The notes under the pieces are model-generated. The model saw only the letters and a program-made list of their open reading frames with translations, was not told where the DNA came from and did not search any database. The translations under genes and the position numbers were made by a program. Of a DNA stretch of 50,133 nucleotides, positions 15,873-44,155 are shown in pieces (position 1 is the stretch's first letter; each line of letters begins with the position of its first letter). The stretch comes from Candidatus Moraniibacteriota bacterium (GTDB lineage: Bacteria; Patescibacteriota; Minisyncoccia; Moranbacterales; UBA1568): NCBI GenBank assembly GCA_013334245.1, contig JAAXXZ010000009.1, positions 1-50,133 on the forward strand. Direction: 5' to 3'.

Positions 15873-16271
15873 GGGGTTGTCTAGTTTCGACAGCGTGCTC
15901 TTTCAGAACCGGCAAGCCGATGCGGGGAGTCATCGAAAAAAATCCCCACATATGATATCTGCCAACATCACACAGAAAGTGAAGGCAGCGTTCGCCTCGG
16001 CGTTCGCCCCGTCCTTCGCTTCCGTTCTCGCCTAACTTCGGTTTGCGGAACCATCGGAACCCCGACGCCTGATACGGGAATTCCGGTGCCATACCATCAG
16101 GCGGACCGACAAGGGTCTTTCTTCCCTTCACTCTGTTGGCCCGGCATGAAAGGAAGCCCTGGAAAGATTTTTGTCGATCTTTCCGCTTTTCAGGGAACCA
16201 AAGGTCGACTACGCTTGTAGAAGGTTTTGGAAGGATTCGTCTGGACATGGGTGCGATTCCCATCAACTCCA
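15873..16271 (+). ncRNA. ssrA: tmRNA (10Sa RNA)
   Basis: The 5' end GGGGTTGTCTAGTTTCGACA and 3' end pair as an acceptor stem (GGGGTTG with CAACTCC at 16264-16270, one G-U). A T-arm ATGGG-TGCGATT-CCCAT is present; its loop has G at the second position instead of U. The discriminator is A at 16271 and CCA is not encoded. The tag frame starts GCC AAC at 15961 and ends TAA at 16035. It encodes 24 residues beginning ANITQKVK and ending FASVLA. smpB lies just upstream. Confidence 0.93.
15961..16035 (+). other. tmRNA proteolysis-tag reading frame
   Basis: Resume codon GCC followed by AAC, 24 codons, stop TAA. The encoded tag is rich in Ala, Phe and Ser and ends in Val-Leu-Ala rather than the common Leu-Ala-Ala. 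The 5' boundary is inferred from the usual Ala-Asn start. Confidence 0.7.
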
Positions 16272-16280
16272 CAGGAAGCT

Positions 16281-18338: not shown

Positions 18339-19079
18339 TCAGTCCATCAAGTCATCAGGGCTTCCGCTGCCGCCTGTTGCCGCGCATCGCGTCAGATCGT
18401 AGACGACGTCCTTCTTCTCCACCACGATGCGCCAGCCCGCCTTCTCCGCGGCTTCCTTCAGGTTCTTGTTCGGATTGAACGCGATCGGATGTTCCACGAT
18501 CCGGAAGATACCGATGTCCGATTCCGTATCCCCGATTCCGTACGAATCGGCCAGGTCGATTCCATTCTCCTCCGCATACCGACTCACGACCGCGTCTTTC
18601 GCCTTTGTCGGCTCGAAGGTGGCCCGCCCGGTATACAGTCCGTTCTCATCCTTCTCGTATACGCTTCCGAACACCTTGTCGAATCCCAGATACTCGTCAT
18701 TGTACTCCTCGACGACCTCAATCGGGGAACCGGAAACCGCGATCATATGTCTCCCTTCTTCCCGGAACTTTCTGATGAGCGCTTCCGAGAACAGATAGGT
18801 TCGCTTCATGTGAAACGGGATGACGATTTTGCTCGCCTCGCGGACTTTCTCTTCCGAAACTCCGCGGATATGCTCGGCATACAGAGCGACGAGCGCACTG
18901 CGATAATCCTCGTACGTCCCCTCGTGTTCCAACCAGTTGGAATAGACTTCCGTCAGCCGTCTCCGTATCGACGTCGGGAACGTCCCCAGCCAGGAAAGTT
19001 CGTTGATCAGCTCAAAATGCAGGTTCTTGCGGAATATCGTCCCGTCGATGTCGAATACGACCAGTTTTTTCTTGTCCAT
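18339..19079 (-). CDS. HAD-superfamily (IB-type) phosphatase
   Basis: 246 residues. Motif I DIDGT with the nucleophile Asp10 and acid Asp12, motif II in AVSGSP, motif III lysine before DAVVSRYA, and motif IV GIGDTESDIGIF. A long helical cap lies between motifs I and II. The pattern is that of SerB-like/IB phosphatases; the substrate is not determinable. Start ATG 19079, 10 bp downstream of the SpoU methylase stop, so likely in one transcript with it. Confidence 0.85.
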   Translation of the reverse strand: MDKKKLVVFDIDGTIFRKNLHFELINELSWLGTFPTSIRRRLTEVYSNWLEHEGTYEDYRSALVALYAEHIRGVSEEKVREASKIVIPFHMKRTYLFSEALIRKFREEGRHMIAVSGSPIEVVEEYNDEYLGFDKVFGSVYEKDENGLYTGRATFEPTKAKDAVVSRYAEENGIDLADSYGIGDTESDIGIFRIVEHPIAFNPNKNLKEAAEKAGWRIVVEKKDVVYDLTRCAATGGSGSPDDLMD

Positions 19080-19089
19080 GTGGCGTCCG

Positions 19090-19596
19090 TTACTTGGTTC
19101 CTCTCCCCTCCATTGTACTCATGAGCGAAAAAAGGGCAATTCCCGTCGCTACCGAGACGTTCAATGACCGTTTGACACCCCGCATCGGTAGACTGATGAC
19201 GGCATCGCATGACCGGAGTATTGCCGGATCGACACCCTCGGTCTCGTTTCCCACGAAAATGGCCGCACGTTCCGCCGGAACGAACGAACGGTAGTCGATA
19301 CTCGATTCTCCCGTCTCGAGCGCGACGATGGATATCCCCTCACTCCGAAGTCGCCCGACCAGCTCATGAATGTCGGATACCCGTTCCCAGGGAACGGCGT
19401 GTTCCGCGCCGAGAGCCGTTTTCGCCAGGGATTTCTCCGCATCCGTCATCCACCGCTTCCCCTCTTCCGCGGGAACCTGCGTATATCCTGACACGAAGAT
19501 TCGCCCAACTCCTGCCCCGTCGGCCGTACGGAACATCGCGCCCACGTTATGAGCGCTCCTGATATCGTGAAGGATGAGGAAGAGTTCGTGAGACAT
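19090..19596 (-). CDS. SpoU/TrmH-family RNA 2'-O-methyltransferase
   Basis: 168 residues. SPOUT trefoil-knot enzyme with the three motifs: DIRSAHNVGAMFRTADG (Asn and Arg), AIFVGNETEGV, and LPMRGVKRSLNVSVATGIALF. It methylates a ribose in tRNA or rRNA; the target cannot be assigned because the N-terminal extension that would distinguish TrmH or RlmB types is absent. Start ATG 19596, followed upstream by a heptad tract. Confidence 0.88.
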   Translation of the reverse strand: MSHELFLILHDIRSAHNVGAMFRTADGAGVGRIFVSGYTQVPAEEGKRWMTDAEKSLAKTALGAEHAVPWERVSDIHELVGRLRSEGISIVALETGESSIDYRSFVPAERAAIFVGNETEGVDPAILRSCDAVISLPMRGVKRSLNVSVATGIALFSLMSTMEGRGTK

Positions 19597-19601
19597 AAAG
19601 T

Positions 19602-19657
19602 CAGATGACAGACATCAGTTAACAGATAACTAATGGCAGATAACGAATGTCAATACA
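19602..19657. repeat. Heptad tract (8 units)
   Basis: Units CAGATGA, CAGACAT, CAGTTAA, CAGATAA, CTAATGG, CAGATAA, CGAATGT, CAATACA in unbroken 7-nt phase. Confidence 0.7.
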
Positions 19658-19721
19658 CGGAGATCGACGGATGAAGAAGATTTTGCAGTCTAACCCTGTC
19701 GAGCACTGTACGGACCTTGCT

Positions 19722-19847
19722 CCACGTCCAATGTTCCATGTCCAATGCTCTATGCTCTATCTTAACCGTTATCTGTTTCATGTTCTCCGTTCCCTGTTCA
19801 CTATTCCCTGTTCAATGATCAATGTTAACTGTTCTCTGTTAACTGCC
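19722..19847. repeat. Heptad tract (18 units, unbroken register)
   Basis: 126 nt that divide exactly into 18 units of 7 nt, most ending in GTT, GCT or ATT: CAATGTT, CCATGTC, CAATGCT, CTATGCT, CTATCTT, AACCGTT, ATCTGTT and so on to AACTGCC. The first base is usually C and positions 4-7 approach TGTT. The TAA stop of the glycosidase gene lies inside it. Confidence 0.8.
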
Positions 19848-20861
19848 TTGGAACAGTTCCTTCGCGGTATTCCAAACCGCCGGTTCCCCCTTCGTCACCT
19901 TGAGCCAATACCACCATTCCACGCCCCACAGGTACGACTCGGAAAATCCTACGCGCCTCGAATAATCGACATACTCGCGAAGCAGATCGGGATTCATGGT
20001 CTCGTACTGTTCCGCGACCGACGCGTCCGCGACCCAGCCTTTCGCCCACGGCTCCGCCTGCAGTTCCGCGACGATGAATCGGCTGCGGCCCATGAACAAC
20101 CGCAGCATCTCCGACTTGAAACGATAGTAATTCGGCCCGATAGGATACGTGACATACCCATACGCGGGATTGTTCACTTTTCTGTACATGGTCGTCCCGA
20201 GAATATCGCCACGGGAAGCGGCGGCCGTCCATGCGGAGAATTCACCGCTGTCGGTGACGAGTATGGGACGGGATGGATCAAGCGACCGTACGTACGCGAT
20301 TTCGGCATCGAAAAATTCGCGGGAAAAAGCCGGGCATTCACCGAAAAATTCGACGAACGGTTCATTTTCGACTTGCCAGACCGAAACCTCCGGACGCTCG
20401 CGATACCGCGATACCGCGGCTCCGATGAAGTCCGTCAGGCGTGCCTGTCGATACGCATCGCTCCCTTCGTCCTTCACCCAATCCGGAATATGACATTCGG
20501 GCCATCTCGGCTCACGCTGGCCGACGACAAGAATCACGTCCACCCTCCGACTCGCCGCCTCGTCAAGCATCCAATCGGTATCAGAAAAGTCATACACCCC
20601 CTTCTCACGCTCCACAAGATCCCAATACACCGGGATGCGAAGTTTCCGGGCGCCGAGATCATCAAGGGTGGCAAGGTATGCCTCCCGCCAATCGAGTCCG
20701 AGGTCACGGGCATACGGTACCGAAAACGTGACCCCGAGCGCGACGTCCTCCCGCGGGGCCGGGCCGGGAAGATTGAAGTACGTGAAAAATCCTCCCGCGA
20801 TCAGAAGCGTGATTCCTACCGCGAGTCCGATGATTTTGAGCACGAACAGTTTCCGTTTCAT
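19839..20861 (-). CDS. Membrane-anchored clan-A glycoside hydrolase-like protein
   Basis: 340 residues. Residues about 9-28 form a signal anchor. A TIM-barrel follows, typical of clan GH-A (GH5/GH39/GH42-like): RKLRIPVYWDLVEREKGVYDF, the acid/base Glu167 in VWQVENEPF, and a candidate nucleophile Glu266 in FIVAELQAEPW. It is predicted to act on glycans outside the cytoplasmic membrane; the substrate is unknown. Start ATG 20861, 14 bp after the DMT transporter gene. Its stop codon is contributed by a heptad tract. Confidence 0.78.
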   Translation of the reverse strand: MKRKLFVLKIIGLAVGITLLIAGGFFTYFNLPGPAPREDVALGVTFSVPYARDLGLDWREAYLATLDDLGARKLRIPVYWDLVEREKGVYDFSDTDWMLDEAASRRVDVILVVGQREPRWPECHIPDWVKDEGSDAYRQARLTDFIGAAVSRYRERPEVSVWQVENEPFVEFFGECPAFSREFFDAEIAYVRSLDPSRPILVTDSGEFSAWTAAASRGDILGTTMYRKVNNPAYGYVTYPIGPNYYRFKSEMLRLFMGRSRFIVAELQAEPWAKGWVADASVAEQYETMNPDLLREYVDYSRRVGFSESYLWGVEWWYWLKVTKGEPAVWNTAKELFQGS

Positions 20862-27644: not shown

Positions 27645-27750
27645 GTCATCCCGAGCGAGTCTTCGAGTCGAGAGATCTGCTTCGAATATTGTGGATTCCT
27701 CCACTCCGTGTGCTCCTCCCACATATGCAGGACGTCGGGTCGGAATGACA
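27645..27750. repeat. TIR element, family E, copy 2
   Basis: 106 bp, GTCATCCCGAGCG at the left and TCGGAATGAC at the right. The interior shares GATCTGC and ATTCCTC with copy 1 at 8336-8442. It overlaps the extreme 5' end of the mutY open frame. Confidence 0.72.
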
Positions 27751-27754
27751 GCGT

Positions 27755-27871
27755 GTTGTCAGTTGTTTGTTGTCAGTTGTTTGTTCCCCGTTGTCAGTTG
27801 TAAGTTGTGAGTTGTAAGTTCGTAATCGTCAGTCATTCTTCCGTTGTAAGTTGTCAGTTGTTTGTTATCAG
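27755..27871. repeat. Heptad tract (GTTGTNN, about 16 units)
   Basis: Runs of GTTGTCA, GTTGTTT, GTTGTAA and GTTGTGA in 7-nt phase, interrupted once near 27820-27840. The TGA stop of mnmA (27868-27870) lies at its end. Confidence 0.75.
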
Positions 27872-28947
27872 TTTTCCGAGATAATCCCCGAACCGAGGCA
27901 CTCGTCCCCACGATAAAACGCTGCGATCTGCCCGGCCGCGATGCCGGTATCACCATTCGCGATCGTAACGTGTCCGCAACGTTCCCGAAGGGACCCCATT
28001 GGGGCCGACTGGATCGAAAGCGTGCATGGATATTCCTGCACTCCGTGACGGAGTTTCACCGTCAGTCGATCGTCCACGTCCGGTGCGTCCGAGATCCATG
28101 AAAGACCGTCGACATCGAATTTCGATCGCGCCGTTTCCGAGCTGCGATATGCGTTCGATACGTACACGATATTTTTTTCCGCATCCTTCGAAACGACGTA
28201 CCATGGGCCGCCCGAAAGTCCGATGCCGCGCCGCTGGCCAATCGTATAGAACCAGTATCCATCGTGCTTCGCGAGCACCGCTCCGGTCTTCGCATCCACG
28301 ATATCCCCCTCTTTCGTGCCAAGCGTCTCCTTGAGAAACTCATCAAATGGGATAGTACCGAGGAAACAGATACCCTGACTATCCTTCCGTTCCGCGTTTG
28401 AAAGTCCGTATGTTCGCGCGAGTTCCCGCACCTCGTCTTTGCGATACTCACCGATCGGGAACATCGCCTTCACCAACTGATCCTGCCGAAGCCGGGAGAG
28501 AAAGTAGGTCTGGTCTTTATGTTCGTCGGCGGAGCGCAACAGTCGCGCTTTTCCGTCGCGGATTTCCGTTTTCGCGTAGTGCCCCGTCGCCACATGGTCG
28601 AACTCGGCCCCGTATGCCTCAACGAACGCCCCGAATTTGATGAGCGTATTACAAAACACGTCCGGATTCGGCGTCCGTCCCGCCTTCGCCTCGGCGATCA
28701 CGTACGACACGATACGCTCGTGGTATTCCTTCTGGAACGGAACGATCTCGAGTGGTACCCCCGCCCCCTCGCATACCGAGCGGACATATTTCAGATCTTC
28801 CTCCCACGGGCATTCACCCAGGAACGACAACTCGTCCTCAAGCCATATCTTGAGGTAGAACGCAGTAACATCGTGCCCCGCGTCCTTGAGCAATCGGAGC
28901 GACACCGAGCTGTCCACCCCACCGGATATAAGCATCGCTATCTTCAT
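27868..28947 (-). CDS. mnmA: tRNA-specific 2-thiouridylase
   Basis: 359 residues. ATP-binding P-loop-like SGGVDSS (8-14), NPDVFCN with the first catalytic cysteine, HVATGHYAK, and DSQGICFLG with the second (persulfide) cysteine; a C-terminal beta-barrel follows. It thiolates U34 of Lys, Glu and Gln tRNAs. The sulfur donor would come from a cysteine desulfurase, and sufS in this window is a candidate. Start ATG 28947 with a good promoter 23 bp upstream. The stop codon is formed inside a heptad tract. Confidence 0.95.
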   Translation of the reverse strand: MKIAMLISGGVDSSVSLRLLKDAGHDVTAFYLKIWLEDELSFLGECPWEEDLKYVRSVCEGAGVPLEIVPFQKEYHERIVSYVIAEAKAGRTPNPDVFCNTLIKFGAFVEAYGAEFDHVATGHYAKTEIRDGKARLLRSADEHKDQTYFLSRLRQDQLVKAMFPIGEYRKDEVRELARTYGLSNAERKDSQGICFLGTIPFDEFLKETLGTKEGDIVDAKTGAVLAKHDGYWFYTIGQRRGIGLSGGPWYVVSKDAEKNIVYVSNAYRSSETARSKFDVDGLSWISDAPDVDDRLTVKLRHGVQEYPCTLSIQSAPMGSLRERCGHVTIANGDTGIAAGQIAAFYRGDECLGSGIISEN

Positions 28948-31085: not shown

Positions 31086-31541
31086 ATGAAGATATCAAAA
31101 AGGGCATATTACGGCCTCAGGGCGGCAGTCAGTCTCGCGGAAGCGGACGGACCGGTTTCGGCGCGTGAGCTCGCGGAGCGTGAACATATCCCCGAGGACT
31201 TCCTCGAAAAGATCCTACAGAAACTTCGCAAAACCGGCATCGTCGAATCGACCAAGGGCGTCGAGGGCGGGTATACGTTCGCAAACAAGGCTGCTTCCGT
31301 CTGGGACATTCTCAAATCGCTCGATGGGCCCGTGCGAACCTTCTCCTCCCCGGGCGGTAAAGGCACCCTCCCCTGCGATTTCCCTTCCCACTGCCGGACA
31401 AACGACGTACTACGAAGGCTTGAGATTGAAATCGAGAAGACGCTCTCGGGAATGACGATCGGACACCTTAACGAACAACTAACAACTCACAACAAACAAC
31501 GGGAAGATAAAGACGAAAACCGCATCAAGAGCTGTGAATGA
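31086..31541 (+). CDS. Rrf2-family transcriptional regulator (IscR/SufR-like)
   Basis: 151 residues from ATG 31086. Winged-helix start KISKRAYYGLRAAVSLAEADGPVSARELAEREHIPEDFLEKILQKL, wing STKGVEGGY, then a cluster-binding loop with only two clear cysteines (LPCDFPSHC). IscR uses three cysteines and a histidine, so cluster ligation may differ. Its position and the palindromic operator argue that it senses Fe-S status and represses the suf genes. The final 20 or so residues (EQLTTHNKQRED...) are translated heptad repeat, so the native end was probably near GMTIGHLN. Confidence 0.9.
   Translation: MKISKRAYYGLRAAVSLAEADGPVSARELAEREHIPEDFLEKILQKLRKTGIVESTKGVEGGYTFANKAASVWDILKSLDGPVRTFSSPGGKGTLPCDFPSHCRTNDVLRRLEIEIEKTLSGMTIGHLNEQLTTHNKQREDKDENRIKSCE
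31470..31504. repeat. Heptad tract inside the rrf2 3' end
   Basis: AACGAAC, AACTAAC, AACTCAC, AACAAAC, AACGGGA: the reverse-strand form of the GTTGTNN family. Confidence 0.7.
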
Positions 31542-31633: not shown

Positions 31634-31675
31634 GTTGTTGGTTATCAGTTGTTAGTTGTAAGTTGTTAGTTATAC
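31634..31675. repeat. Heptad tract (6 units)
   Basis: GTTGTTG, GTTATCA, GTTGTTA, GTTGTAA, GTTGTTA, GTTATAC, ending 3 bp before the sufC ATG. Confidence 0.75.
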
Positions 31676-31678
31676 CCT

Positions 31679-32410
31679 ATGCTTTCAATAAATCATCTCA
31701 CTTCCTCAATCGGCGACAAGGAAATACTCCATGACCTCACGCTCTCGTTCGAACCTGGAAAAACGTATGTCGTCCTCGGACCGAACGGTTCAGGGAAATC
31801 AACCCTGGCAGCGACAATCATGGGACGGCCGGACATTGCTCTCTCCGAAGACTCTGAACTCGCATCGAATGATGAGGATCTGAAGTCGTTATCCGCAGAC
31901 AAGCGCGCGAAGCTCGGAATCTTCCTTTCCTTCCAGTCCCCGCTTCCGATTCCGGGCGTCTCGGTCGAAGAGCTGCTTCGTGTCGCGCTCGACGGAAAGA
32001 AGGATCCCGTCACCCTTCATCATGAACTGCGCGTGCTCGCCAAAGAGATCGGTCTTGTCGAGGAATTCCTCTCCCGCTCGATACACGACGGATTCTCCGG
32101 CGGTGAACGTAAGAAGATCGAGGCGATCCAGGCCGCGATCCTCGCACCCTCGCTCGCGATCTTCGATGAAATCGACACCGGAACCGATACGGACGCCGTG
32201 AAGCGCATCGCGGAATTCCTGAAGGCACATCTTCCGCAGGACGCGACAAAAATCTATATCACGCATTCCCCGAAATTGATCGAGCTCTTGCATCCCGATT
32301 TGGTCATCATTCTCAAGGACGGCCGTGTAGCGGCGGAGGGCGGTCACGATTTGGCGACCAAGACGATCGAGGAAGGATTCGGAGGGATAGGAGTGAGAAG
32401 TGAGAAGTGA
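31679..32410 (+). CDS. sufC: SUF cluster ATPase SufC
   Basis: 243 residues, ABC ATPase. Walker A GPNGSGKST (34-42), signature FSGGERKKIE, Walker B LAIFDEIDTGTD (SufC-type D-E-x-D), and H-switch ITHSP. It powers the SufB-SufD scaffold on which Fe-S clusters are built. Start ATG 31679. The last residues (VRSEK) and the TGA stop come from three perfect GTGAGAA heptads, so the native C-terminus is slightly altered. Confidence 0.96.
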   Translation: MLSINHLTSSIGDKEILHDLTLSFEPGKTYVVLGPNGSGKSTLAATIMGRPDIALSEDSELASNDEDLKSLSADKRAKLGIFLSFQSPLPIPGVSVEELLRVALDGKKDPVTLHHELRVLAKEIGLVEEFLSRSIHDGFSGGERKKIEAIQAAILAPSLAIFDEIDTGTDTDAVKRIAEFLKAHLPQDATKIYITHSPKLIELLHPDLVIILKDGRVAAEGGHDLATKTIEEGFGGIGVRSEK

Positions 32411-32576: not shown

Positions 32577-34007
32577 ATGGAATTGACTTTCGACTTTTCG
32601 GAACTTATGGATGATAAGAAAGACGATCTCGATTTCGATTATAAATACGGCTTCTCAATGCCGGAGCGGGCGGTCCAAGGAACCGGACGCGGTCTTTCGG
32701 CGTCCGTCGTACGACAAATTTCCGAGATAAAAGGAGAGCCCGAATGGATGCTCGACTTCCGACTCAAGTCCTACGACCTTTTCAATAAATCCTCACGACC
32801 GAAGTGGGGGCCGGACCTCTCGGCGCTCGATTACGACGCTATCACGTATTACAAGAAATCGACCGAGTCGGCCGTGAAGAGCTGGGACGACCTCCCGCCG
32901 GAAATCCGCGATACCTATGATCGGATCGGCGTTCCCGAAGCCGAGCGTGATTTCCTGGCCGGCGTCTCCGCACAGTATGAAAGCGAGGTCGTATACGAAA
33001 GCGTTCAGAAGGAACTGACCAAGCAGGGAGTCGTCTTCTGCGACATGGATACCGCGGTCAGGAAATATCCGGATATCGTACGCGAATATTTCGGCACGCT
33101 TGTCCCAGCCGCGGACAACTTCTCCGCCGCGCTCAACTCCGCGACCTGGTCCGGTGGCTCGTTCGTGTACGTCCCGAAGGGCGTCCATGTCACGCTCCCG
33201 CTACAGGCGTATTTCCGCATCAATTCCGAATCGTTCGGACAGTTTGAACGGACGCTCATCGTCGCCGACGAGGGCAGTTTCGTTCACTATCTCGAAGGGT
33301 GCACCGCCCCGATCTACCGCACCGATTCGCTCCATTCCGCAGTGGTCGAAATCTTCGTTAAGAATGGTGCCCGCGTCCGGTATACCACCGTCCAGAACTG
33401 GAGCGGCAATATCTACAATCTCGTCACCAAACGTGCCAAGGCCGAAGAGGACGCCGTCATGGAATGGGTCGACTGCAACCTTGGATCCAAGGTCACGATG
33501 AAATACCCGGCCGTCATTCTCGCCGGTCGCGGTGCGCGTGGCGAAATGCTCTCTTTGGCACTCGCAGGCAAAGACCAACACCAGGACACCGGTGCGCGCA
33601 TGATCCACCTCGCACCCGACACGCACTCGCGCATCGTCTCGAAATCGATTTCCAAAGACGGCGGGCGGTCATCCTTCCGCGGTGACATCCGCGTCGCCAA
33701 GAACGCCTCCGGTTGTTCGTCTTCAAGCGTCTGTGACGCGCTTATCCTCGATCCCGAGTCGCGCTCCGACACGTATCCCTCGCTTCGGACCGATGCGTCC
33801 GATGCCCGGCTCGCGCACGAGGCGACCGTCGAGAAGATCGGCGAGGAAAAGCTCTTCTATCTTGCCTCGCGCGGACTCTCGCCTCAGGAAGCGGGCGGGC
33901 TCCTGGTAAACGGCTTCATCGAACCGGTCGTGAAGGAGATCCCGATGGAGTATTCCCTCGAGCTCAACCGACTGATCAACCTCGAGATGGAAGGAAGTGT
34001 GGGATAA
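32577..34007 (+). CDS. sufB: SUF scaffold protein SufB
   Basis: 476 residues, the usual length. Landmarks: YKYGFSMPERAVQGTGRGLSA, KSYDLFNKSSRPKWGPDLS, SGGSFVYVPKGVHVTLPLQAYFRINSESFGQFERTLI, YLEGCTAPIY with a conserved cysteine, and DARLAHEATVEKIGEEKLFYLASRGL near the end. SufB with SufC and SufD forms the cluster assembly scaffold. Start ATG 32577 lies 47 bp after the C-rich element. Followed directly by a heptad tract. Confidence 0.97.
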   Translation: MELTFDFSELMDDKKDDLDFDYKYGFSMPERAVQGTGRGLSASVVRQISEIKGEPEWMLDFRLKSYDLFNKSSRPKWGPDLSALDYDAITYYKKSTESAVKSWDDLPPEIRDTYDRIGVPEAERDFLAGVSAQYESEVVYESVQKELTKQGVVFCDMDTAVRKYPDIVREYFGTLVPAADNFSAALNSATWSGGSFVYVPKGVHVTLPLQAYFRINSESFGQFERTLIVADEGSFVHYLEGCTAPIYRTDSLHSAVVEIFVKNGARVRYTTVQNWSGNIYNLVTKRAKAEEDAVMEWVDCNLGSKVTMKYPAVILAGRGARGEMLSLALAGKDQHQDTGARMIHLAPDTHSRIVSKSISKDGGRSSFRGDIRVAKNASGCSSSSVCDALILDPESRSDTYPSLRTDASDARLAHEATVEKIGEEKLFYLASRGLSPQEAGGLLVNGFIEPVVKEIPMEYSLELNRLINLEMEGSVG

Positions 34008-34010
34008 GAG

Positions 34011-34042
34011 AACCGACAACACACGACGAACAACTTACAACC
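34011..34042. repeat. Heptad tract after sufB
   Basis: AACCGAC, AACACAC, GACGAAC, AACTTAC, AACC in 7-nt phase, 4 nt after the sufB stop. Confidence 0.65.
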
Positions 34043-34057
34043 AGAAAGTGGAGCATC

Positions 34058-36120: not shown

Positions 36121-36144
36121 TAATTGTTTATATTTTTATTCTTC

Positions 36145-36175
36145 GTTATAAGTTGTCAGTTGTAAGTTGTAAGTT
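36145..36175. repeat. Heptad tract before sufU
   Basis: GTTATAA, GTTGTCA, GTTGTAA, GTTGTAA, GTT, ending 6 bp before the sufU ATG. Confidence 0.75.
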
Positions 36176-36181
36176 TTTCCT

Positions 36182-36562
36182 ATGTCCTCCCTCTACCAGG
36201 CGATTATCCTCGACCATTCCAAGCATCCGCGAAACTGCGGCGAACTTGAACATGCCAATCATCACGGGGAAGCGAAGAATCCGACCTGCGGAGACTCGCT
36301 CTCGATGGATGTCCTCACCGAAAACGGGCTCATATCCGATATTCGGTTTCAGGGACAGGGCTGCGCCATCTCACAAGCCTCCGCCTCGCTCCTGACGGAA
36401 TCCGTAAAAGGCAAGCGCATCAAGGCCGCACTCGGCCTTGGGACGGACGATATCCTTGCCCTACTCGGCGTCGAACTTTCCCCGAATAGGCTCAAGTGCG
36501 CCCTTTTGTCGCTTGAGACCCTGAAAAAGACGCTTGCTCAAGATTCGACCGATACGGTATGA
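36182..36562 (+). CDS. sufU: Sulfur acceptor SufU (IscU-like)
   Basis: 126 residues. Three conserved cysteines in NPTCGD (Cys36 with Asp38), GQGCAIS (Cys61) and LKCALL (Cys106), the zinc/sulfur-transfer set of SufU. The 18-residue insertion typical of SufU is indicated by the region before LSPNRLKC. It accepts persulfide from SufS. Start ATG 36182; ferredoxin follows 31 bp later. Confidence 0.94.
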   Translation: MSSLYQAIILDHSKHPRNCGELEHANHHGEAKNPTCGDSLSMDVLTENGLISDIRFQGQGCAISQASASLLTESVKGKRIKAALGLGTDDILALLGVELSPNRLKCALLSLETLKKTLAQDSTDTV

Positions 36563-37768: not shown

Positions 37769-38617
37769 TTACCGATACCCCGCCAGGACTTCCTGAAAGG
37801 CCTGTTCATTGAATTTCCGTTCGTAAAGCGGAGCGTCGGTGATGCCGAGACGGTCCTCGTACAGCTCGCGGGAATCGTTGCGATATAAGACACCGAGCGG
37901 CATACGATCGGTCTCGAGCGCAAGCCGGAACGCCGCAACACGATCCATCGGATCGTGCGTCTCCGGGACGGGATACGTGTGGTCCTTGTACCACTGGTAG
38001 GTGTTCGTCTTGTTGAAAACGACGCACGGCACGAACAGATCGACGACCGAGAATCCCTTGAAAGATATGGCGGCCTTGATAATCTCTTTGGCATGCGACG
38101 GATCGCCGACATTGGCACGTGCGACGAACGGTGCATCGACGGACACTGCCACCGCGATCGGGTTGAACGGTTCGACGATGACCCCGTCCGGCTGGATCGG
38201 ATTCTTCATCCCCTCCTGCGACGTCGGTGACGCCTGGCCCTTCGTGAGGCCGTAGACCATGTTGTTGTGCACGAGGACGGTGATGTCAGGATTGCGGCGC
38301 GCGACATGCAGGAGGTGGTTTCCGCCCTCGCCATAGATGTCCCCATCACCTGATTCGGCTATGACCGTCAGGTTCCGATTCGCGAGCTTGATACCCATGG
38401 CGGCAGGGATGGAACGCCCGTGCAGCCCGTTGAACATGTGTGCATCCACGTACTGCGGCATCTTGGCCGCCTGGCCGATTCCGGAAGCGATGACGGTCTC
38501 TTGCGGGGTTTTTCCAAGCTCGCGAAGCGCCATCTTAAGGATGTTCAGGAGCGGGAAGTTTCCGCATCCGGGGCACCACGCGATATCGGTGTCCTGTGAC
38601 ATATCGAAGGGAAGCAT
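37769..38617 (-). CDS. korB: 2-oxoacid:ferredoxin oxidoreductase, beta subunit
   Basis: 282 residues from ATG 38617. TPP-binding subunit: AWCPGCGNFPLLNIL, HGRSIPAAMGIKLANRNLTVIAESGDGDIYGEGGNHLLHVARRN, VHNNMVYGLTKGQASPTS. Decarboxylates a 2-oxoacid to the acyl-CoA and reduces ferredoxin. KorB versus PorB specificity cannot be decided. Downstream partner of the alpha/gamma gene. Confidence 0.9.
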   Translation of the reverse strand: MLPFDMSQDTDIAWCPGCGNFPLLNILKMALRELGKTPQETVIASGIGQAAKMPQYVDAHMFNGLHGRSIPAAMGIKLANRNLTVIAESGDGDIYGEGGNHLLHVARRNPDITVLVHNNMVYGLTKGQASPTSQEGMKNPIQPDGVIVEPFNPIAVAVSVDAPFVARANVGDPSHAKEIIKAAISFKGFSVVDLFVPCVVFNKTNTYQWYKDHTYPVPETHDPMDRVAAFRLALETDRMPLGVLYRNDSRELYEDRLGITDAPLYERKFNEQAFQEVLAGYR

Positions 38618-38625
38618 ACTCTTTT

Positions 38626-38758
38626 TACTTACAACTGACAACTCATAACTGACAACATTTTTCCAAAAAATTCTTTATCCCGATCCTTTGTTGTAAGTTG
38701 TTCGTTGTTCGTTGTGAGGCAGTTATTGGTAGTAAGTTGTTAGTTGTTCGTTGTGAGT
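38626..38758. repeat. Heptad tracts between korA and korB
   Basis: AACTGAC, AACTCAT, AACTGAC (38626-38656) and GTTGTAA, GTTGTTC, GTTGTTC, GTTGTGA, then GTTGTTA, GTTGTTC, GTTGTGA (38690-38758). The korA stop TAA (38740-38742) is within the second block. Confidence 0.75.
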
Positions 38759-40464
38759 TCGGACTTCAGTTCCTCAATCAGTTCCTCGACCGCGAACGGC
38801 TCTCCGGTCGATTTCAGGACGCGTCGCGAAACTTTCACTCCGAGTTCCCTGACAAGAAGATCGGCAAACTGCCCCGAGTGGTTATTCTCCACGACGACGA
38901 TTCGCTTTCCTTTCAAAAGTTTCTTCACATCCGGATTGATCGGAAATACCTGAGCGAAATGGAGTCCGCCGAGCGTCTTGCTCCCCAGCTTCCCGATTAC
39001 CTCTTCGAGCACTCCCTTGTTCGATCCCCAGGAAATGACGGCCGTTTCCGATTCCTCAAAATTATCGAAGGATTTCGGCATCATCGCATCGTCGCGAAGC
39101 GCATCCAGGCGGCGGAACCTCTTTTCCATCATCGCCTTACGGACGTCGAAACTCTCCGTTATATGCCCGCTCTCATCATGTTCGTCAGAGTCGACGCAGA
39201 CCAGTCCATCCCCGTGCCCCGGTACCGCCCGCGGCGACAGACCATCCTTGGAAAGCGCATAGCGGTGATAGCTGTTTTCAGACTTGACGACATGTTTCGT
39301 GATCTGCATTCGGGGAACGTCTCCCGCATCGAGCGGCGAAACCGCATCCAGGAAATACTGGTCGGAAAGGACGAACACCGGAATCTGATACGCATCCGCC
39401 GTATCGAAGGCCTTCTGCATGGTTTCGATCGCTTCGGCCGGGGTGCCAGGCGCATATATCGCTCTGACAAACTCCCCGTGTCCCGCGTAGAGGGCAAGGT
39501 TGAGATCGCCCTGCTCGGTCCGAGTCGGAAGGCCGGTTGCCGGTCCGGGTCGCTGTCCGATATGGATCACGATCGGCGTCTCGATCATACCCGAAAGACT
39601 CACGCCCTCCTGCATAAGGTCGAATCCGCCGCCGGATGTGGTCACCAAGGCCCGTGCACCAGCGTATGAGGCACCGAGGCCCGCGTTGATGGCCGAGATC
39701 TCATCCTCCGCCTGATCGACGACTACGCCGCATCTTTTCGCATGCTGCGCGAGAAACGCGAGTACGCCCGTCCCCGGAGACATCGGGTAGGACGAAATGA
39801 AATCACATCCACCCGCAAGCGCGCCGATACCGAGTGCCGTCGTCCCGTCCAAAAGCAGGTCGTCTTTCTTTTCCTCGTCCGGAGTAAGCGGCACCTCGAT
39901 GCCCTCCGCATACGCGGTATGTCGGCCGAAATCATACCCTTTTCGCAACGCTGCGACGTTTTTTTCGACGACATCCTCCCCTTTTCTGGAAAAAGTTTTC
40001 CGAAGAAACGCTTCCGCCCCCTCGGACGAAACCCCGAGCACTCCGAGAACGACGCCGAGCGCGACGGAGTTCGCATAGAGAGGGCTTCCGCCCGCCTCGT
40101 TCGCGAACCGTACGATCGGCGTATCGATAAAACGACGGATACCGTCCGAATCCGCACCGGCCTTTTCGGCAAACACCGTCGTTCCCTCGCCGATCCTCCA
40201 TTTCAAATGGCACAATGCCGGCGCATCGAGCGCGAACAGGAAGTCGATACGGCGTACGTATGCCCGCCGCGGAGCCTTCGTGGAAGAAAGTCGTATCTCG
40301 ACCGAGTTGCTTCCGCCCCGCACGCGCGACATGTATTCCTTGCAGGCAAAAACGCCGTATCCGGCATCCTTCAGGATCCGCATGAGCGCGGCCTCGACCG
40401 TCTGTATCCCCTGTCCCGCCGCTCCCCCGACTACGATGGAAATATCCTTCGAAAAATGTGACAT
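38740..40464 (-). CDS. korA: 2-oxoacid:ferredoxin oxidoreductase, fused gamma-alpha subunit
   Basis: 574 residues from ATG 40464. The first 190 or so residues are the gamma domain (ISIVVGGAAGQGIQTVEAALMRIL, KEYMSRVRGGSNSVEIRLS). The alpha domain follows with FISSYPMSPGTGVLAFLAQ, AGLGASYAGARALVTTSGGGFDLMQEGVSLSGM and a C-terminal part with ISWGSNKGVLEEV. This gamma-alpha fusion is the KorA architecture. It works with KorB and a ferredoxin. The last residues, LTTNN, and the TAA are read from a heptad tract. Confidence 0.92.
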   Translation of the reverse strand: MSHFSKDISIVVGGAAGQGIQTVEAALMRILKDAGYGVFACKEYMSRVRGGSNSVEIRLSSTKAPRRAYVRRIDFLFALDAPALCHLKWRIGEGTTVFAEKAGADSDGIRRFIDTPIVRFANEAGGSPLYANSVALGVVLGVLGVSSEGAEAFLRKTFSRKGEDVVEKNVAALRKGYDFGRHTAYAEGIEVPLTPDEEKKDDLLLDGTTALGIGALAGGCDFISSYPMSPGTGVLAFLAQHAKRCGVVVDQAEDEISAINAGLGASYAGARALVTTSGGGFDLMQEGVSLSGMIETPIVIHIGQRPGPATGLPTRTEQGDLNLALYAGHGEFVRAIYAPGTPAEAIETMQKAFDTADAYQIPVFVLSDQYFLDAVSPLDAGDVPRMQITKHVVKSENSYHRYALSKDGLSPRAVPGHGDGLVCVDSDEHDESGHITESFDVRKAMMEKRFRRLDALRDDAMMPKSFDNFEESETAVISWGSNKGVLEEVIGKLGSKTLGGLHFAQVFPINPDVKKLLKGKRIVVVENNHSGQFADLLVRELGVKVSRRVLKSTGEPFAVEELIEELKSELTTNN

Positions 40465-40520
40465 ATCTTTTTTCTTTCGGTGTTTCTTCCAGTATACCAC
40501 GCTGAGGAAAGGGATCAGGA

Positions 40521-40580
40521 GAAAGTAGTGAGGAGTTGGAAGTTAGAAGTAGTACGTAGCAAGGAGAAAGAAGTGAGGAA
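40521..40580. repeat. Purine-rich heptad-like tract upstream of korA
   Basis: AGTAGTG, AGGAGTT, GGAAGTT, AGAAGTA, GTACGTA, GCAAGGA, GAAAGAA, GTGAGGA. The remaining 140 bp up to 40720 shows no gene. Confidence 0.5.
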
Positions 40581-40720
40581 TATATGAGACAGGGTCAACG
40601 ATCAGAAACCATTAGGTCCTGAGTCCACATAAGAAAGTCAATGAAGCACAAAGAATCCTGCCCTAGTCCGAAGAGACTATGCAAGATCATCATCCTTCGT
40701 GATCCGGCCCCTTTGCGTGG

Positions 40721-43929: not shown

Positions 43930-43933
43930 AATC

Positions 43934-43975
43934 AGATAACAGCGAGCAGATAACAATTAGCAGGGAACAAGAATC
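43934..43975. repeat. Heptad tract (6 units) upstream of xseA
   Basis: AGATAAC, AGCGAGC, AGATAAC, AATTAGC, AGGGAAC, AAGAATC in unbroken 7-nt phase. Confidence 0.75.
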
Positions 43976-44155
43976 AAAAAGGCAAGGCGTCGGACTGCTG
44001 TTTTACGAAGAAATATTTTGATGTATTTTTTTATTTTCCGTTATCCGCTTATCGTTCCCTGCTTCGCCGCGCCGGAGCCTTGACATAGGCTTGCATCGCC
44101 ACGCTACACCCTCAGCGAAGGTTGGCTCCCCGTTCAATGTTGTCTGTTATCTGAT
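43976..44155. other. Intergenic repeat-like sequence
   Basis: Contains more period-7 material (TTATCCG, CTTATCG, TTCCCTG around 44042-44062 and GTTGTCT, GTTATCT near 44139-44152). Also a segment with CTTCGCCGCGCCGGAGCC and CCCTCAGCGAAGG that could be an interspersed element, but no second copy is in the window. Confidence 0.35.

Follow-up and report, generated by a model that had tools for sequence, protein, structure and literature searches.

Heptanucleotide repeats in cyanobacterial genomes are known as STRRs. It is a long-standing question why units of seven nucleotides are favoured among the long simple sequence repeats of bacteria; according to Mrazek 2007, as cited in two later studies, in most prokaryotic genomes long simple sequence repeats most often have this unit length, and polymerase slippage has been proposed for heptanucleotide and long simple sequence repeats (PMC4679880, PMC4692102). 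Published heptamer families come from Xanthomonas, Nostoc, Cyanobacteria and Beggiatoaceae (PMC4692102, PMC4679880). The GGGAATC heptamers of Xanthomonas form convergent pairs, always with one array per strand; two xanthomonads have 70 and 75 such pairs, and the counterpart word in Nostoc PCC 7120 is GGGGAYT (PMC4692102). TAACTGA heptamers occur as direct repeats in Beggiatoaceae, Cyanobacteria and Bacteroidetes, and a translational role has been proposed for those of Beggiatoaceae (PMC4679880).

Here we analysed a 50,133-nt stretch of DNA (the window), contig C21 of a 1.117 Mb metagenome-assembled genome (MAG, labelled G000) of a Candidatus Moraniibacteriota bacterium, which carries a degenerate heptad array at 19722–19847. 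Arrays in this genome are dispersed in many copies, mostly intergenic and mostly of the word AACTNAC, at times AACAGNN. They belong to the already known bacterial heptamer kind, and what is unusual is their position at gene edges and their near-constant outward reading.

Degenerate 7-nt units in many dispersed intergenic arrays are a feature shared with the Xanthomonas and Nostoc repeats. With Xanthomonas GGGAATC there is further agreement in the convergent pairs, in a fixed orientation to the neighbouring ORFs with matching geometry, and in arrays that differ in sequence between the same genes across species (PMC4692102). The differences lie in the host, here Patescibacteria, and in the words, AACTNAC and AACAGNN, which, unlike the proposed G-quadruplex formers, are not rich in G; beyond both systems, the outward rule is seen here to be independent of the word across lineages. 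The TAACTGA repeats have a similar word (AACTGAT versus AACTGAC), are likewise intergenic, near starts and patchy in phylogeny, and show 7-nt-step indels between Cyanothece strains (PMC4679880). However, the exact TAACTGA word is not the unit here, the dominant units being AACTGAC and AACTTAC (the commonest), AACTAAC, AACTCAC and AACAGAT, with AACTGAT a minor variant. In Maribeggiatoa, TAACTGA also faces forward immediately upstream of starts (PMC4679880), whereas the sense strand upstream of starts here reads GTNAGTT, the opposite.

Structure of the array and its gap

The array is 126 nt long and consists of 18 in-phase heptads with zero slip. The preliminary description had reported this division, with TGTT at positions 4–7 and C at position 1, and our recount agrees: C occupies position 1 in 13 of the 18 units, and T, G, T and T occupy positions 4 to 7 in 15, 16, 14 and 15 of them. 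Self-identity at lags 7, 14 and 21 was 0.639, 0.652 and 0.590, respectively; in 2000 dinucleotide shuffles of the array, lag-7 identity was 0.288 ± 0.041 (maximum 0.445). Only lag 7 and its multiples were strongly raised, both in the array and in the intergenic DNA of the window, where the lag-7 z-score was 8 to 9. The recurrence of the unit over the window, also reported earlier, is borne out by six further arrays flagged by windowed lag-7 matching, near 27750, 31470, 31618, 36117, 38717 and 40509. On the minus strand the array is of class AACANNG (NNNTGTT on the plus strand), and it belongs to a second word class, AACAGNN.

The array lies at the 3′ edge of a glycoside-hydrolase-like TIM-barrel gene (19839–20861, minus strand), running into this gene and including its stop codon, which falls within the first heptads. 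On the other flank of the gap is a SpoU-family RNA methylase gene (19090–19596, minus strand; PF00588, E = 1.8e-30). A partner array in inverted orientation (19599–19655, plus strand; AACAGAT, AACTAAT, GGCAGAT, AACGAAT) sits at the opposite gap edge just before the start codon of this SpoU/TrmH-type methylase, and is shorter and weaker than the array at 19722–19847. Both the partner and the contact with the hydrolase stop codon had been overlooked in the preliminary description. A core at 19656–19721 separates the two arrays; intergenic cores of the genus are not mutual copies. The inverted arms (19598–19624 and 19823–19849) are 81% complementary.

The adjacency of the hydrolase and methylase genes is conserved around the array, and the gap between them measures 243 nt here, 17 nt in the relative G001 (L005), 15 nt in L004 and 657 nt in G005. 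No array is present in the gap of G001 or L004, and that of G005 holds an AACTNAC array. In L004 the hydrolase stop and methylase start overlap as ATGA, judged by eye. In G005 (L002, L003), tandem palindromic repeats of ~31 nt (CCAGCCTACGCCAAGGCTACGGCGTGGCGATG) come after the heptad array. Two records labelled as Acinetobacter phage (CAKLQH020000046.1 and CAKLQF020000034.1) match 92–96 nt of the query, its heptad part, at 75%.

Distribution of heptad arrays

Further arrays in the window, all given here on the plus strand, occur singly and in pairs. GTTGTNA heptad arrays at 27754–27873 lie at the stop end of a minus-strand gene (27868–28947), an AAC array at 34011–34048 directly follows the stop of a plus-strand gene (32607–34007), and a GTT array at 36138–36175 directly precedes a start at 36182. 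Three pairs have an AAC array on the left and a GTT array on the right (the order we call AG, the reverse being GA): 31470–31500 with 31634–31671, the latter ending 7 nt before a start at 31679; 38626–38656 with arrays at 38690–38766, an AG pair also present in G001 and G004; and 43931–43975, of class AACAGNN, with 44125–44155. The window also contains a purine-rich, heptad-like array of another word at 40509–40584 (GAGGAGT, TGGAAGT, TAGAAGT and so on), and a tmRNA gene at 15873–16274. Between 31541 and 36182, several gap flanks are 80–84% identical to the sister sequence L115 (of the MAG G003), most other orthologous gaps being 92–100% identical, and this alignment suggests that the segment may have undergone recombination or replacement.

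The genome was examined by sampled stretches, and the sample was enriched for arrays of the first class. Three consecutive GTTGTNA units, allowing up to two mismatches, matched 80 + 59 times on the two strands of G000, and the reversed control 0 + 0 times; for the second class, AACAGNN, there were 10 + 10 matches and 3 + 3 in the control. With one mismatch, GTTGTNA ×3 gave 28–170 matches in five of six genus genomes and one in G002. Of the five congeners compared (28, 66, 47, 170 and 1 matches), four are thus array-rich and the fifth, G002, is almost without arrays, and the remainder of the family beyond the genus had 0–8 matches. Among 380 Patescibacteria searched with one mismatch, the first class was found in 34 and the second in 50. 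In 13 other Patescibacteria genomes, selected because heptads were present, lag 7 was the commonest or joint-commonest among lags 4–13 around such matches, with many words.

Intergenic regions of G000 other than this gap also show a lag-7 excess. It is strong in the window and weak in unselected stretches of G000 (z 2.7 to 3.3), because the arrays are regionally clustered: a manual count gave ~11 arrays in 19.5 kb of contig C5 and ~3 in 240 kb of C31 and C33, and 192 kb of unselected long-contig sequence had arrays in two of 122 gaps. The array-poor G002 gave z 3.2 in a larger sample, similar to G000, and 0.2 in a smaller one. Contamination of the MAG bin was rejected, as an independent MAG (G003, the same record as L001) has these arrays too, and its contig C52 carries orthologues of two array-rich pieces together.

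Sequence change within arrays

The sister G003 is 95% identical to G000, and substitutions between the two amount to 3.2% in arrays, 4.2% in other intergenic DNA and 4.7% in ORFs. The preliminary description held that the phase survives while bases turn over. This is not supported on either count: array substitutions are no faster than those of intergenic DNA or ORFs and thus give no hint that bases turn over quickly while the phase is protected, and the array at 19722–19847 has two 1-nt indels in the sister that ignore the phase and leave the unit number unchanged, an outcome that the preliminary description had itself named as refuting. Selection on spacing, suggested at the same time, is not supported either, since plain intergenic DNA of the two genomes has 503 substitutions against 65 indels (~8 to 1), a background under which a largely intact phase needs no such selection.

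The expectation that units would change in multiples of seven in sister genomes held for clean tandem AACTNAC arrays elsewhere, with indels of −7, −7, −7 and −14; no unit change was seen at 19722–19847. The tally is small and comprises ten in-array indels outside the latter array, of which ~4 are clean unit changes and the remainder edge or poorly aligned cases. An apparent one-unit difference was also seen in the orthologous arm of G004 and G005. Other arrays of the genome thus do change by whole units, and 19722–19847 has no protected phase. Some species carry an array at a gap where others have none; related gaps are either short and empty (13–21 nt) or hold a different word, and the word class switches at orthologous gaps (L083:8297, L094:6046).

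Taken with their distribution, this pattern of change leads us to regard 19722–19847 as probably one copy of a genus-wide set of degenerate intergenic heptamer simple-sequence arrays, changed by slippage and tolerated in gaps. Such arrays would be seeded in the short intergenic gaps that tolerate them, would gain or lose units by 7-nt slippage and would then be blurred by ordinary substitution, presumably with no maintenance for a sequence-specific function. A special templating or spacing-selection mechanism is not required for them. Pure slippage leaves unexplained the outward polarity and the one word common to dispersed loci, and the sister indels at 19722–19847 are single-base only, so that slippage by 7 nt was not seen at this array.

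Orientation of arrays relative to genes

Gaps with arrays in both orientations were AG in 33 cases and GA in none across five genus genomes, and by nearest gene edge 142 arrays read AAC-outward (82 at stops, 60 at starts) against 21 inward, counts which include the near-identical sisters G000 and G003 and so are not independent. Arrays lying no more than 35 nt from a gene edge were also tested word-blind. The outward-frame score, counted as same minus opposite, was 336 for 352 linked pairs in G000 and 330 for 338 in G005, with a flip-permutation p of 0.0005 in each; the permutation assumes independent arrays, linked pairs are not independent counts and stop codons within arrays bias the called gene ends, hence these figures are indicative. 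In G000 the transcription frame scored 18 and the plus-strand frame 0, and placement oriented by transcription or strand was rejected. Array orientation, as these indicative figures have it, follows the direction outward from the gene and not transcription or chromosome strand.

Two unrelated genomes with other words showed the same rule, G086 with a score of 30 for 38 pairs (p 0.003) and G119 with 20 for 32 (p 0.005). In G119 (L227–L231) the outward word is GTT (GTTGTAA/GTTATAA), not AAC, and all four paired gaps were GTT-left and AAC-right. The tendency was outward and not significant in G170 and G296 (p 0.12 and 0.06), the transcription frame scoring equally in the latter, and the word-blind test gave no outward signal in G097. 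In Patescibacteria the outward geometry is thus shared by several unrelated words that are not G-rich. Common causes tied to one word, such as a G-quadruplex or a TAACTGA-binding regulator, become less likely, and the G-quadruplex explanation is weakened by such words following the rule. The rule is a quantitative constraint for any mechanism, checkable over public genomes.

Within a gap there is one heptad word, which reads outward at starts and stops alike. Arrays less than 60 nt from a gene edge mostly begin 7–10 nt from the start codon at starts and are spread around the stop codon at stops, where the home-made gene caller is biased towards contact by stop codons that the arrays themselves supply. 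By inspection, the two arms of a pair were always of the same word class (three pairs of the second class and 25 of the first, none mixed), and the arms showed no pairing-specific match (0.612 for own against 0.596 for swapped pairs, with 45 of 200 swaps reaching the former). Stop codons in the outward word were rejected as the cause of the polarity; they might help at gene ends and not at starts, and the Xanthomonas word is seemingly stop-free.

If the arrays are slippage products tolerated in gaps, the polarity would arise at the seeding step or by growth away from gene ends. A templated process is a minority explanation of it, in which a break between genes would leave two free 3′ ends, each extended by an error-prone enzyme recopying a 7-nt template before the ends are joined. 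This would account for a transcription-independent outward polarity in true singles as well as pairs, and would fit the word concordance per gap, the lack of a pairing-specific arm match or common core, and a constant seven with lineage-specific words. We nevertheless think it unlikely, as no enzyme, template or event of this kind was seen, and the conserved hydrolase–methylase adjacency leaves no rearrangement that would mark a break. It is similarly doubtful that all bacterial heptamer arrays, whatever their word, grow outward from gene ends regardless of transcription or replication strand, which would imply an undescribed process adding 7-nt units to DNA ends or intergenic edges.

The exclusive AG order and the empty gaps of relatives would also be expected if AAC array, core and GTT array had been inserted as a unit, in the manner of a miniature inverted-repeat element, and a groES-like gap (L090:4196–4355), with a pair that lies after a CIRCE-like promoter region and before the start codon, fits this as well. 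Such an origin is improbable, given that array-masked cores are not mutual copies, their cross-matches being other palindromic families, and that most arrays are single; of 39 singles tested, only 13 had a weak partner oriented as expected, and three had one oriented the opposite way. G001 and G004 bear arrays and lack the transposase domain Y1_Tnp, which the array-poor G002 has; the distribution of this domain does not track the arrays, and mobilisation of the RAYT/IS200 type was rejected. A transposase-mobilised REP or MITE was likewise rejected, the masked gaps having no conserved core or terminal sequence common to copies.

Binding sites in RNA or DNA, where a protein or an RNA hairpin acting in translation control or as a terminator would put the 7-nt spacing under selection, are very improbable. 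Start-side arrays do peak 7–10 nt before the called start codon, one AG pair (window 38617–38740) is kept in three species, and translational control was proposed by MacGregor for the Beggiatoaceae TAACTGA repeats (PMC4679880). However, orientation ignores transcription, the arms have no match specific to their pairing, a given gap can differ between species in its word and in whether it has an array, and the array has no Rfam match. The strand fold of 19590–19860 was unexceptional with DNA parameters (z −1.5), and, with no excess complementarity within pairs, an RNA hairpin or inverted duplication of the arms was rejected. A known non-coding RNA was also rejected, the sole Rfam match being the tmRNA. 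Integron attC sites have the form RYYYAAC...GTTRRRY and were considered as an analogy only; the heptads do not fit GTTRRRY.

Other elements share gaps with the arrays. Dispersed palindromic intergenic elements, such as TTGTCATCCCGAGCGAGTCTTCGAGTCGAGGGATCTGC and CCGTAGAGACGCCCCGTCGGGGCGTCTCTACGG, were observed in gaps with or without heptad arrays (L081–L100, L159–L190). The pair at L090:4196–4355 would, by eye, fall in the 5′ leader of the next gene. In the L163 gap near 19014–19261 an 8-nt phasing is apparent by eye (ATTGTTGA ATTGTTAA ATGGCTAA and so on), adjoining heptad arrays.
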